64,000 nt of DNA from Mesorhizobium sp. B2-7-2 (lineage in GTDB: Bacteria > Pseudomonadota > Alphaproteobacteria > Rhizobiales > Rhizobiaceae), in assembly GCF_006440775.1 (NCBI RefSeq), contig NZ_VFTZ01000011.1:62001-126000 (forward strand), in the 5' to 3' direction. The notes beneath the pieces were generated by a model, which searched no databases, was not told the origin of the DNA, and saw nothing but the letters and a program-made list of their open reading frames with translations. Within the stretch, counting starts at the first letter, position 1, and each line of letters begins with the position of its first letter. Both the position numbers and the translations under genes were made by a program. Shown piece after piece: positions 28,073 to 31,952 of this stretch.

Positions 28073-29355
28073 ACGAGGCGGCGGCAGCGGCCAGGTCAGC
28101 GGCGGGCGCTTTCTCCGGCTTCGAGCGCATGGTGGCGTGGCGCTATCTGCGCTCGCGCCGCAAGGAGACGGTGATCTCGGTCATCGCCTCGATCTCCTTC
28201 CTCGGCATCATGCTCGGAGTCGCGACGTTGATCGTCGTCATGGCCGTGATGAACGGTTTCCGCGCCGAATTGCTGACCCGCATCCTCGGCGTCAACGGCC
28301 ATCTCATCGTGCAGCCGCTCGATTCGCCGCTGGAGGACTACGCCCAGGTGGCGAGCCGCATCAACGGTGTTTCGGGCGTCAAATACGCCATCCCGCTGAT
28401 CGACGGCCAGGTCCTGGCGCAAGGCAATGTCGGCGGCGGCACGGGCGCCCTGGTGCGCGGCATCCGCGGCGAGGACCTCGGCAAGATTTCGATCGTCGCC
28501 AGCAACATCAAGCAGGGCACGCTCGACGGCTTCGATACCGGCGACGGCGTGGCGATCGGCAAGCGCATGGCCGAAAGCCTCGGGCTGGTGCTCGGCGACA
28601 CGATCACGCTGATCTCGCCGGACGGCGACGTGACGCCGCTCGGCACCACGCCGCGCATGAAGGGCTACAAGGTGACGGCGATCTTCGAGGTCGGCATGTC
28701 GGAATATGACAGCTCGATCGTCTATATGCCGTTCTCGGAAGCGCAGCTCTATTTCAACATGGATGGGCGAGCCCAGACCATCGAGATCTATGTCGACAAT
28801 CCCGACAATGTCGACGCGTTGAAGCCGCTGGTCGAGCAGGCGGCGCAGCGGCCGGTCGACCTCGTCGACTGGCGCCAGCGCAACGAGACCTTCTTCTCGG
28901 CGCTGCAGGTCGAGCGCAACGTCATGTTCATGATCCTGACGCTGATCGTGCTGGTGGCGGCGCTCAACATCATTTCCGGCCTCATCATGCTGGTGAAGGA
29001 CAAGGGCCACGACATCGCCATCCTGCGCACGATGGGCGCCTCGCGCGGCGCGATCCTGCGCATCTTCCTGATGACCGGCGCGGCGATCGGCGTCACCGGC
29101 ACCATCGCCGGCGTGCTGCTCGGCGTCGTCATCTGCATCAATATCGAATCGATCCGCCAGTTCTTCTCCTGGATGACCGGCAGGATCCTGTTCAACCCCG
29201 AGCTCTATTTCCTCAGCCAGCTGCCTGCCAAGATGGATCCGCGCGAGACGACCTATGTCGTCATCATGGCGCTGGCCCTGTCGTTCCTCGCGACGGTGTT
29301 CCCGGCCTGGCGGGCCGCCCGGCTCGATCCCGTCGAAGCCTTGAGGTACGAATGA
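28069..29355 (+). CDS. lolE: Lipoprotein-releasing ABC transporter permease LolC/LolE
   Basis: Inner-membrane subunit that extracts outer-membrane lipoproteins and passes them to LolA. The 428-residue protein has an N-terminal helix ([20 protein letters not shown]), a large periplasmic MacB-like domain, and three C-terminal helices of the FtsX fold, with [16 protein letters not shown]. The ATG at 28069 overlaps the proS TGA. Alphaproteobacteria usually have one such permease; whether to call it LolC or LolE is a naming matter. Confidence 0.93.
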
Positions 29356-30035
29356 TGGCCGAGGCCATTATCGAGTTGAAGGGCGTCGAGCGGCACTACG
29401 TCCAGGGGCCGCGCAAGCTCACCATTCTGAACGGCGCCGACTTTTCGCTCAGGCGCGGCGAGATGGTGGCGCTGGTGGCGCCGTCCGGCACCGGCAAGTC
29501 GACGCTTTTGCACACGGCGGGTCTGCTGGAGCGGCCCGACGCCGGCGACGTGATCCTCGCCGGCCGTGCGTGCGGCCGGCTCTCGGACGAGGAGCGCACC
29601 GCGATCCGCCGCAACGATGTCGGCTTCGTCTATCAGTTCCATCATTTGCTACCGGAGTTCTCCGCGCTCGAGAACATCATGATGCCGCAACTGATCAAGG
29701 GGCTCGGCCGCAAGGAAGCATCCGAGCGGGCGGCACAGCTCCTCGACTATATGCAGATCGGCAAGCGCGCGCAGCACCGGCCGGCCGAGCTTTCCGGCGG
29801 CGAGCAGCAGCGCGTCGCCATTGCCCGCGCGGTCGCCAACGCGCCGCTGGTGCTCCTGGCCGACGAGCCGACCGGCAATCTCGATCCGGTCACCGCGTCC
29901 TACGTGTTCGATGCGCTGGAGGCGCTGGTCAGGCAGTCGGGCCTTGCGGCGCTGATCGCCACCCACAACCACGAGCTCGCCGGCCGCATGGACCGGCGGG
30001 TGACGTTGGCCGAGGGGAAGGTCGTGCCGCTATAG
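29352..30035 (+). CDS. lolD: Lipoprotein-releasing ABC transporter ATPase LolD
   Basis: ATPase partner of the upstream permease; 227 residues. Walker A is APSGTGKS (the usual GPSGSGKS is slightly changed), the signature is [14 protein letters not shown], and Walker B is [12 protein letters not shown]. Two adjacent ATGs (29352 and 29355) are possible starts; the first overlaps the lolE stop. Confidence 0.95.
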
Positions 30036-30044
30036 GTCCCAATG

Positions 30045-30252
30045 TCATCATCGTAGGGCGAAGCTCCGCGAAGCGGAGCGAAGACCCTAGGATCCTGTGT
30101 GTTGACCTCTGCCGAAGAATGCGACGCCGCAGAGGGGGCAGCGGGCGGCTCTTAGAAGCCTTGTTCCGCACCGTAACGAAACATCAATCTCACGGAATGG
30201 ATTCTAGGGTCTGCGCGCGTCGCTTCGCTCCTTGCTCCGCCCTAGAATGACG
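30045..30252. repeat. Mosaic repeat element, copy 1
   Basis: About 210 bp with imperfect inverted ends: TAGGGCGAAG...GACCCTAGGATCC on the left and CACGGAATGGATTCTAGGGTC...CCGCCCTAGAATGACG on the right. The right end nearly matches 43620-43684, and related sequence is at 56770-56851. It fills the space after lolD and has no coding signal. Confidence 0.8.
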
Positions 30253-30376
30253 AAGCCATCGGCGTGTTGGCCAATCGCAAACGGCTGCGATGTGCCCGCG
30301 GAGCAAAGCCGCTAACCTTTCCTTAACCCTGCCCAAACGGACCGCTCGAATTTCCCCGGCGCGCCGTCGACGGTCG

Positions 30377-30411
30377 TTGACATTCGAACAAAATTAGAAC
30401 AAATTACGAAC
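30377..30411 (+). promoter_or_regulatory. Promoter overlapped by a triple LexA-type (SOS) operator
   Basis: Three GAAC half-sites at 30386-30389, 30397-30400 and 30408-30411 are each separated by exactly 7 bp. GAAC-N7-GAAC is the complement of the alphaproteobacterial LexA box GTTC-N7-GTTC (established for Rhodobacter and rhizobia). A TTGACA (-35) at 30377-30382 directly precedes and overlaps it, so bound LexA would block RNA polymerase. The next gene starts at 30433. Confidence 0.75.
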
Positions 30412-30432
30412 ATTCCAACAACGGAGAGAGTT

Positions 30433-30519
30433 ATGTCTGATCTGGTTCAGGATGTTGTCTCGCTGGTTTGCATGAGCACCTTTCTCGTTTCCATGGCGAT
30501 CTGGATCGGCGCCATGTGA
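30433..30519 (+). CDS. 28-residue SOS-box-controlled membrane peptide
   Basis: A tiny open frame of 28 codons, too short for routine gene callers. It starts at an ATG 6 bp after GGAGAGAG and ends with TGA. The N-terminus MSDLVQD is polar, and residues 8-27 form one hydrophobic helix (VVSLVCMSTFLVSMAIWIGA). A GAAC triple box lies 22 bp upstream. In size, topology and SOS control it resembles SidA of Caulobacter (29 residues), which blocks division through FtsW/FtsN after DNA damage. That parallel is an inference; I have not compared the sequences. A hairpin follows directly. Confidence 0.7.
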   Translation: MSDLVQDVVSLVCMSTFLVSMAIWIGAM

Positions 30520-30541
30520 TCGGGCGGCTTCGCCGCTACCG

Positions 30542-30589
30542 GGACGGGCAATGGCCCGTCCGTTGTTCGGGCGGGCAACAAGGCCCGCC
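30542..30589 (+). terminator. Tandem GC-rich hairpins after the micropeptide
   Basis: Two perfect hairpins: GGACGGGC/GCCCGTCC with a 4-nt loop (30542-30561), and GGCGGGC/GCCCGCC with a 6-nt loop (30570-30589). There is no T-run, so termination would be weak or Rho-assisted. They fit the end of a very short transcript. Confidence 0.45.
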
Positions 30590-30701
30590 TGTGGGATAAG
30601 CAAAGCCCGCCTGGGACGGGCAAGAGCCCACCCATTGCTGTTAAGTCTTTCTTGGCCGCGTCGCCGCTAGGCTGCTCCTTCAAGACAGGGAGCCAACACA
30701 A

Positions 30702-31952
30702 GTGTCGGTCATCGTCACGGTCACGCTCGTGGCCGGCAATCTCGGACTGATCTTTCTTTTGATGACCGTGCCGCTTGGACTGCGCACGGTGACGGTCAGC
30801 CGCGTGATCAAGGCCGATCGCAATCGCCTTTGGCAGGCGCTGTGGCCGTTCGGCAGCGACGCCGGCTGGTCGGGCGAAATCCTTGCCGCCCAGCCGCTGG
30901 ATAGCGAAGGGGCGGCGCAGATCCGGCTCTCCTGGGAAGGACGGGACGGGCGGCCGATCGACCGCAAGGCGCGGTTCGAGGATGTGAGGGAGGGAAGCTG
31001 CTTCTCGATGACGGTCCTTGAGGATACGGCGCTCGATCCCTCGTTCTGGGCGAACTATCGCGAGACCGTCGAACTCGTACCGGACGGTGACGCCACGCGG
31101 GTGACGCTCAGCCAGACAGATCGCTATCGGGGTGTCGCGTTCCTGATCTTCCGTTTCTTCGCCATGCGCCGCGAATTGCGCAAGCTCGACGTCTGGGCGG
31201 CGACGGGCACGTATCGCAGGGGCGGCTGGTTCGAGCATCCGCTGAGCCAAATCGGCTTCGCCGTGCTTTCGGCCCTGATCCTGTGGCCGTTCTTCGGGCT
31301 CAATCTTGGCGGCCTGGCGCTGGCGGCGATCCTCACCTCGGTGGTCGCCCTGCACGAGCTTGGCCATATGGCCGCCTTCCGCCTGACGGGGCATCGCCGG
31401 GCGCGGATGATCTTCATTCCGCTGCTTGGCGGCATCGCCATCGGCGGCAGGCCCTATGACAGCCGCTTCGAGGTCGCCTTCGTGGCGCTTATGGGCGCCG
31501 GCTTCTCCGCCTTCCTGGTGCCGGTGCTGATCGCCGCCAGCGGCTTCGCCAATAGCGAAGGACATCGGCTGGCCGCAATGCTTTTGGCCACGCTTGCCGG
31601 CTGCGCGTCGCTGTTCAACATCGCCAATCTGGTGCCGGTGTGGAAATTCGACGGCGGTCAGGTGCTGCGCCAGATCTGCCCGGGCCCGGCCGCACTTGCG
31701 CTGGCGTCCTTCCTGCTGCTCTTGGCGCTTCTGTCGCTCGGCTGGCGGGCTGGTTTCTCGCCGAAATTCCTGCTGATCGCCGGCGCGGTATTCGCGATCC
31801 TCAGCTTGATCACCGTGGGCAGCGGCGTGAAGCCGCGCCACGAGCTGAAGCCGATCCGGCCCTTCGACAGGCTGGCCATGGCCGGCGCGCTGCTCGCCGT
31901 TTTTGCCATCCATGGCTACGGGATGCTGTGGGCGTCCGCGCAGCTCATGTAG
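30702..31952 (+). CDS. START-like/M50 site-2-protease-like membrane protein
   Basis: A 416-residue membrane protein with a GTG start after AGGGAG. After one N-terminal helix (residues 3-25) comes a soluble SRPBCC/START-like stretch (about 30-160; VSRVIKADRNRLWQALWPF). Then several helices with a zinc-metalloprotease HELGH motif (H218, E219, H222) and a distant NLVPVWKFDGGQV (D317), the third zinc ligand of site-2 proteases. All catalytic residues are present. Family assignment is from these motifs; the substrate is unknown. Convergent with lipB. Confidence 0.75.
   Translation: MSVIVTVTLVAGNLGLIFLLMTVPLGLRTVTVSRVIKADRNRLWQALWPFGSDAGWSGEILAAQPLDSEGAAQIRLSWEGRDGRPIDRKARFEDVREGSCFSMTVLEDTALDPSFWANYRETVELVPDGDATRVTLSQTDRYRGVAFLIFRFFAMRRELRKLDVWAATGTYRRGGWFEHPLSQIGFAVLSALILWPFFGLNLGGLALAAILTSVVALHELGHMAAFRLTGHRRARMIFIPLLGGIAIGGRPYDSRFEVAFVALMGAGFSAFLVPVLIAASGFANSEGHRLAAMLLATLAGCASLFNIANLVPVWKFDGGQVLRQICPGPAALALASFLLLLALLSLGWRAGFSPKFLLIAGAVFAILSLITVGSGVKPRHELKPIRPFDRLAMAGALLAVFAIHGYGMLWASAQLM

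Follow-up and report, generated by a model that had tools for sequence, protein, structure and literature searches.

A candidate SOS-controlled, SidA-like membrane micropeptide encoded downstream of lolD in Mesorhizobium

Our comparative analyses of a 64,000-nucleotide stretch of the genome of Mesorhizobium sp. B2-7-2 (hereafter the window) show that a frame of only 28 codons, located just after lolD and preceded by direct repeats of the LexA type, is conserved together with these repeats, evolves under coding constraint, and shares its locus and a profile similarity with a short Caulobacter peptide that we take to be the division inhibitor SidA. The best explanation, in which we have considerable confidence, is that the gene encodes a LexA-repressed SidA orthologue that would block septation through FtsW/FtsI/FtsN.

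The region between positions 30377 and 30519 reads, on the + strand, TTGACA-TTC-GAAC-N7-GAAC-N7-GAAC, followed further on by GGAGAGAG-TT-ATG and the 28-codon frame. The -35-like hexamer TTGACA (30377–30382) stands just before two LexA (SOS) boxes of the form GAAC-N7-GAAC, box 1 (GAACAAAATTAGAAC, 30386–30400) and box 2 (GAACAAATTACGAAC, 30397–30411), which overlap through their common middle GAAC, the three tetramers starting at 30386, 30397, and 30408 with a period of 11 bp. The Shine-Dalgarno-like GGAGAGAG (30423–30430) precedes the open reading frame (30433–30519, stop included), which encodes MSDLVQDVVSLVCMSTFLVSMAIWIGAM* and which we tentatively assign to the SidA family from sequence, conservation, and profiles. 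The membrane helix is called by hydropathy only, with a mean Kyte-Doolittle value of 2.08 over residues 8–28; in its 28 residues and single helix so judged, the peptide resembles SidA (~29 residues, one membrane helix). The arrangement announced in the earlier note, with three GAAC at an 11-bp period and a TTGACA, then the ribosome-binding site and a frame with one hydrophobic helix, is thus found as described. A sigma-70 promoter scan of the locus passed no promoter, TTGACA having no scored -10 partner, which leaves any -10 element putative.

In Alphaproteobacteria, the LexA site is GTTC-N7-GTTC, that is, GAAC-N7-GAAC (PMC3323433, PMC12700426), and the promoter of the peptide gene carries this direct repeat, as expected both of the LexA regulon in this class and of a sidA gene. 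Within a single sequence such as this one, the repeat does not exceed what chance would give: the window contains two GAAC-N7-GAAC where 1.45 are expected, a number attained in 43 of 100 shuffled sequences, and the GAAC triplet is found genome-wide once on the forward and never on the reverse strand, against one and one in a backward control. Its significance comes from its conservation across genomes. The extended pattern GAACANAANNNGAACA has eight matches in the Mesorhizobium genome itself versus none in the backward control; one is the peptide locus, and four of the other seven adjoin lexA, an imuA-like gene (52 bits, below the 150-bit cut-off), and two dinB-like (DNA polymerase IV-like) genes, whose frames were scanned in part and where the box has the other orientation. 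SOS control of the peptide gene is very likely. The three remaining sites (L248, L250, L253) lie by unassigned genes, including a long frame of coiled-coil appearance, and these are candidate further SOS genes of Mesorhizobium.

Among 158 loci examined, the peptide was found by script in 155 (L068, L071, and L073 escaped the pattern and were dropped); of these, 153 have a strict GAAC-N7-GAAC in the preceding 90 bp and two do not. The 155 loci are not independent and comprise 98 distinct coding DNAs: 30 come from a same-genus search and 80 from a scan of named genomes that belong mostly to that genus, the two sets sharing some genomes. Within the family outside Mesorhizobium, the strict box is found in 41 of the 43 loci with the peptide (46 examined). 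Across the 155 loci, 118 have a box beginning at -46 to -50, 24 have one only at -35 to -39, where box 2 is the sole box, and 11 have it elsewhere; two boxes are present in 98 (40/75 plus 58/80). The 90 bp before the start also contain TTGAC or TTGCA in 151 of the 155 loci (at -56 to -58 in 136), and 153 loci have a Shine-Dalgarno-like GGAG, GAGG, or AGGA no more than 16 bp from the start codon. Forty further family matches (30 weak ones and 10 second copies), picked by the peptide profile alone without using the box in the search, provide an additional test: 27 carry a strict box within 110 bp upstream, versus 0–1 for six control tetramers in the same loci. A dnaE start lies 3′ of the peptide in 26 of these 40, 25 of which have the strict box, and among the remaining 14, without a dnaE start, the box occurs in two, neither of them among the 10 second copies.

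The frame itself behaves as a coding sequence. It is present in all 99 Mesorhizobium genomes, where every best match spans residues 1–28 without stops, and identical peptides occur at named Mesorhizobium loci among the best 80 of 133 relatives. At E ≤ 1, the single sequence gave matches in 133 of the 247 family genomes searched, although chance-like pieces of long frames make up the weakest of them, and a profile search at E ≤ 0.01 reached 149 of the 247 genomes and 77 of 109 genera, with a profile itself built from members of that family; 98 genomes had no profile match at this threshold. Ninety-eight distinct coding DNAs encode 53 distinct 28-residue peptides, with a pN/pS of 0.27, pN lower than pS in 4750 of 4753 pairs, and identities of 0.876, 0.970, and 0.736 at the three codon positions. 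In the same 98 DNAs, identity falls past the stop to 0.31–0.67 for a dozen bases and then to ~0.3–0.5, and stays mostly at 0.5–0.95 over the 57 bases 5′ of the start, a pattern expected of a translated peptide under a fixed promoter. The earlier note had named loss of the frame in relatives that keep the boxes, or substitution patterns without coding constraint, as grounds for abandoning its proposal; on the contrary, relatives with boxes keep the frame, and the synonymous and codon-position patterns reveal constraint. None of six peptides scanned against Pfam-A and NCBIfam matched any family at E ≤ 10.

The position claimed in that note, just after lolD, is also confirmed: the peptide gene lies ~400 bp 3′ of lolD (29352–30035, + strand), whose best NCBIfam match is TIGR02211 LolD (255 bits, under the 308-bit cut-off). 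Of the 145 loci for which 900 bp or more of upstream sequence was available, 127 have an upstream frame with the LolD-type motif SGG[EQ]xQR, which in 117 lies no more than 600 bp away. Between lolD and the peptide promoter (30045–30253), nested inverted repeats with arms of 12–20 nt, 80–89% complementary, have a form like an intergenic palindromic repeat element. On the 3′ side, the two hairpins that had been noticed are present at 30542–30561 and 30569–30589, are G+C-rich, and may mark a 3′ end (30542–30589, + strand) without a T-run. The RNA of 30517–30660 folds with z = -2.89, a stability equalled by 2 of 200 shuffled sequences. A search for terminators with a T-run detected none on the + strand; its two terminator-like matches are on the - strand, and a terminator 3′ of the peptide is at most putative. 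The G+C-rich palindromes GGACGGGCAATGGCCCGTCC and GGGCGGGCAACAAGGCCCGCC fill this side of the gene (30542–30629), GGGCGGGC-rich sequence occurs at the matching place in some related loci, and the 3′ side is not conserved. The next gene on the + strand (30702–31952) encodes an M50 peptidase and is followed, on the other strand, by a gene of the lipoyl ligase A/B family (lipB). The peptidase has an N-terminal SRPBCC-like region (Polyketide_cyc2, 26.4 bits, cut-off 27.4) and sits where dnaE stands in many relatives.

In the dnaE-linked loci among the further family matches described above, the dnaE start motif is found 239–548 bp after the start of the peptide, which reads MTDFVRDLAAFASMSLFIASISFIALGL and alike; part of these stretches also have the LolD-type motif upstream. 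Taken with six other family loci (L054, L069, L072, L074, L076, L077), this linkage suggests that the original arrangement was lolD - box - peptide - dnaE. In the window no dnaE start motif was found, the single match with two mismatches not reading as dnaE. Nor was the motif found in the 1.9–3.1 kb that follow the peptide at each of 80 named loci, the best 80 of 133 relatives, all of which keep peptide and box. We infer that Mesorhizobium lost its dnaE neighbour. Second or third profile matches elsewhere in some family genomes (L330–L339, e.g., MRDLIEDALSFIAVSTFIATFAVWAAYLAEKV) have neither a LexA box nor dnaE in their stretch; they are possibly paralogues under other control, or chance look-alikes.

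A peptide of similar size precedes dnaE in the genus that we take to be Caulobacter, one in the family of genome G688, on the basis of five genomes matching the Caulobacter CtrA protein at 100%. A 29-residue profile, two rows of which come from Caulobacter itself, matches all 41 Caulobacter genomes at E ≤ 0.01. In 32 of 33 loci read, one genome being counted twice, a frame of 29–30 residues is followed by the dnaE start motif 141–241 bp after the start codon, and 31 of these 32 have GAAC-N7-GAA[CT] or GAA[CT]-N7-GAAC within 110 bp upstream. On the other side, two loci read have a nucleoside hydrolase (inosine-uridine) gene, identified by Pfam PF01156 in L147 and alike by eye in L286. These neighbours fit what the sources give for Caulobacter, where sidA is CCNA_02004 (PMC11034885), CCNA_02005 is an inosine-uridine nucleoside hydrolase (PMC3667746), dnaE is CC1926 (PMC1839093), and SidA is described as a 29-residue protein that interacts with FtsW and FtsN (PMC4211646). 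Because neighbours, locus tags, length, and box all fit CCNA_02004, the Caulobacter peptide before dnaE is taken to be SidA. The window peptide belongs to the same ancestral locus, as indicated by lolD upstream and by the dnaE linkage of its relatives, the window itself having no dnaE neighbour.

The similarity between the two peptides is far from obvious in a direct comparison, with only 5 of 28 residues identical, and homology is argued from modest profile scores combined with gene position, peptide length, and the box. A profile-profile comparison with hhalign gave a probability of 80.6% (E 1.3e-5) over 25 columns, ungapped from Met1. With a first, narrow profile (A1), 32–38 of 500 shuffles scored as high as two Caulobacter peptides, and three of nine Caulobacteraceae peptides as well as all six intermediates from outside the family beat all shuffles. 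A broadened HMM, trained on 55 family sequences of exactly 28 residues that included dnaE-linked rhizobial peptides and no Caulobacteraceae, gave 6.8–25.7 bits to 15 of 16 Caulobacteraceae peptides and 5.5 to the other, with 0–23 of 1000 shuffles scoring as high and 15 reversed peptides at -3.0 to 1.0 bits; two Caulobacteraceae peptides tested with the narrow profile (G781, G807) were left out of this test. The columns kept are an acid at 7, S/A at 10, L/F/M at 11, S/C/A at 13, and F at 17, in a common pattern close to [QRK][DE]xx[SA][LF]x[SCA][MVI]xxF. The reading of the earlier note is largely borne out; the likeness to SidA, which it proposed by analogy, is strengthened by gene position, box, peptide length, and a profile match in the same register, pairwise identity being low. 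Where the Caulobacter peptides carry R3 and R6, the window peptide has D3 and Q6, and this acidic instead of basic N-terminus is the main reason to doubt an identical topology, which, judging from sequence, may differ.

Outside the family, an order-wide profile search yielded 22 new loci outside the genus (L080–L101). Ten loci outside the family were read, the top seven plus three with short open frames, and eight of them have box and peptide, four of the eight belonging to one genus; L081 and L082 lack this combination. A class-wide search with a mixed alignment (A5) was set aside: at E ≤ 0.05 its matches were confined to 16 of 385 genomes and included several chance-like stretches in long frames. 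No single HMM can follow so rapidly drifting a peptide, and we turned to its place and its box. Among 40 stretches downstream of lolC, drawn from 142 genomes of the class, 28 contain the dnaE start motif; a strict box in the sense of dnaE lies within 600 bp before it in six of these 28, compared with 0–1 for 11 permuted tetramers and 0–1 for seven other spacings, and an opposite-sense box occurs in three. The other 22 have no box in the dnaE sense, and the box-peptide-dnaE unit is patchy across the class. A short hydrophobic frame follows the box in each of the six stretches, a count made without a control, and their peptides (G666, G750, G745, G682, G634, G764) do not rise above shuffles (5–231 of 500), so that box and place are what supports these six. 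In Caulobacteraceae, the dnaE start was found in 10 of 20 stretches, with a strict box in 5 of the 10 and GAAC-N7-GAA[CT] in all 10, versus 0–1 for permuted tetramers and 0–2 for other spacings.

SidA is induced through RecA/LexA, inserts in the inner membrane, and stabilises an inactive FtsW/FtsI/FtsN complex (PMC4211646). By analogy, in undamaged Mesorhizobium cells LexA would sit on the two overlapping boxes and cover the promoter just downstream of TTGACA. Upon DNA damage, RecA-driven cleavage of LexA would free the promoter, and the peptide would be made from its good ribosome-binding site and insert in the inner membrane as one helix. There, presumably by binding FtsW or FtsN, it would hold the septal-synthesis complex FtsW/FtsI/FtsN inactive and arrest division until repair is done, as for Caulobacter SidA.

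Other explanations can be envisaged. An SOS-induced orthologue of SidA might have taken on another task in rhizobia, for example a TisB-like membrane depolarisation with growth slow-down or a modulation of polar growth instead of septation. The charge pattern (D3 and D7, versus R3, R6, and E7 in Caulobacter peptides) would agree with this, as would the ten box-less further copies read (L330–L339), in which the helix may have been reused. We nevertheless regard a change of task as unlikely, since length (28 residues in most family members, 29–30 in Caulobacter), helix core, and the place before dnaE have all been kept, as expected of a fixed target.

That the peptide is a mere leader, or arises incidentally from a LexA-controlled transcript that serves to produce a small RNA or the downstream gene, seems decidedly improbable. 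In many relatives that gene is dnaE and the box preceding it could serve dnaE induction, and stable hairpins do lie 3′ of the stop, but constraint at the amino-acid level ends at the stop, the ribosome-binding site is conserved, the next gene in the window is an M50 peptidase, and all 80 named loci (best 80 of 133 relatives) retain peptide and box with no dnaE motif found in the next 1.9–3.1 kb. The notion that a short frame happens to follow a chance GAAC repeat could draw on the unremarkable frequency of the repeat in this single sequence; the joint conservation of frame and box already refutes it, and we give it practically no credence. We thus retain the LexA-repressed SidA orthologue as the most probable reading.

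Among known systems, SidA (CCNA_02004) is the closest in length (29 residues versus 28), single helix, kind of LexA box, place before dnaE in relatives of both, and same-register profile match; it differs in sequence (5/28 identical residues), in its basic rather than acidic N-terminus, and in the gene that follows, the window having the M50 peptidase and lipB instead of dnaE. DidA of Caulobacter, likewise a small single-helix, damage-induced division inhibitor, binds FtsN and is under DriD control (PMC4211646); its 71 residues and SOS independence, against 28 residues and a LexA box here, speak against it as the counterpart of the window peptide. The window peptide is short, hydrophobic, and preceded by a LexA box. 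TisB-type SOS membrane peptides are also short, hydrophobic, and LexA-controlled, and act as toxins paired with an antitoxin RNA. YneA of Bacillus, SosA of Staphylococcus, and SulA of Escherichia coli are SOS-induced division inhibitors as well; all are larger, and SulA acts on FtsZ.

What is new is that SidA appears to be part of a long-established family in Alphaproteobacteria. In the open-licence literature searched, neither a rhizobial SidA nor any other division inhibitor induced by the SOS response in rhizobia was seen, nor were SOS peptides in the Sinorhizobium Ribo-seq literature; a view of SidA as a widespread, drifting family at one locus was not seen in the open-licence literature either, the founding 2011 paper being outside that scope. 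We consider it reasonably likely that SidA did not originate as a Caulobacter novelty and that it is instead the most familiar representative of an ancient alphaproteobacterial family of SOS checkpoint peptides, encoded between lolD and dnaE since before the split of Caulobacterales and Rhizobiales, nearly every residue changing while length, helix, the acid at 7, F17, and the LexA box were maintained, and which perhaps spawned box-less paralogues. In rhizobia, which grow from the pole, such a peptide would serve as the general checkpoint after DNA damage, and its small size and divergence would have hidden it from standard gene prediction and sequence searches. If this is true, a single 28-codon gene would answer how rhizobia stop dividing after DNA damage, and the 53 distinct 28-residue peptides would offer a natural series for mapping the contact surface with FtsW/FtsI/FtsN. 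It would also mean that a checkpoint peptide can keep a fixed genomic position even as its sequence diverges past the point where ordinary searches recognise it.
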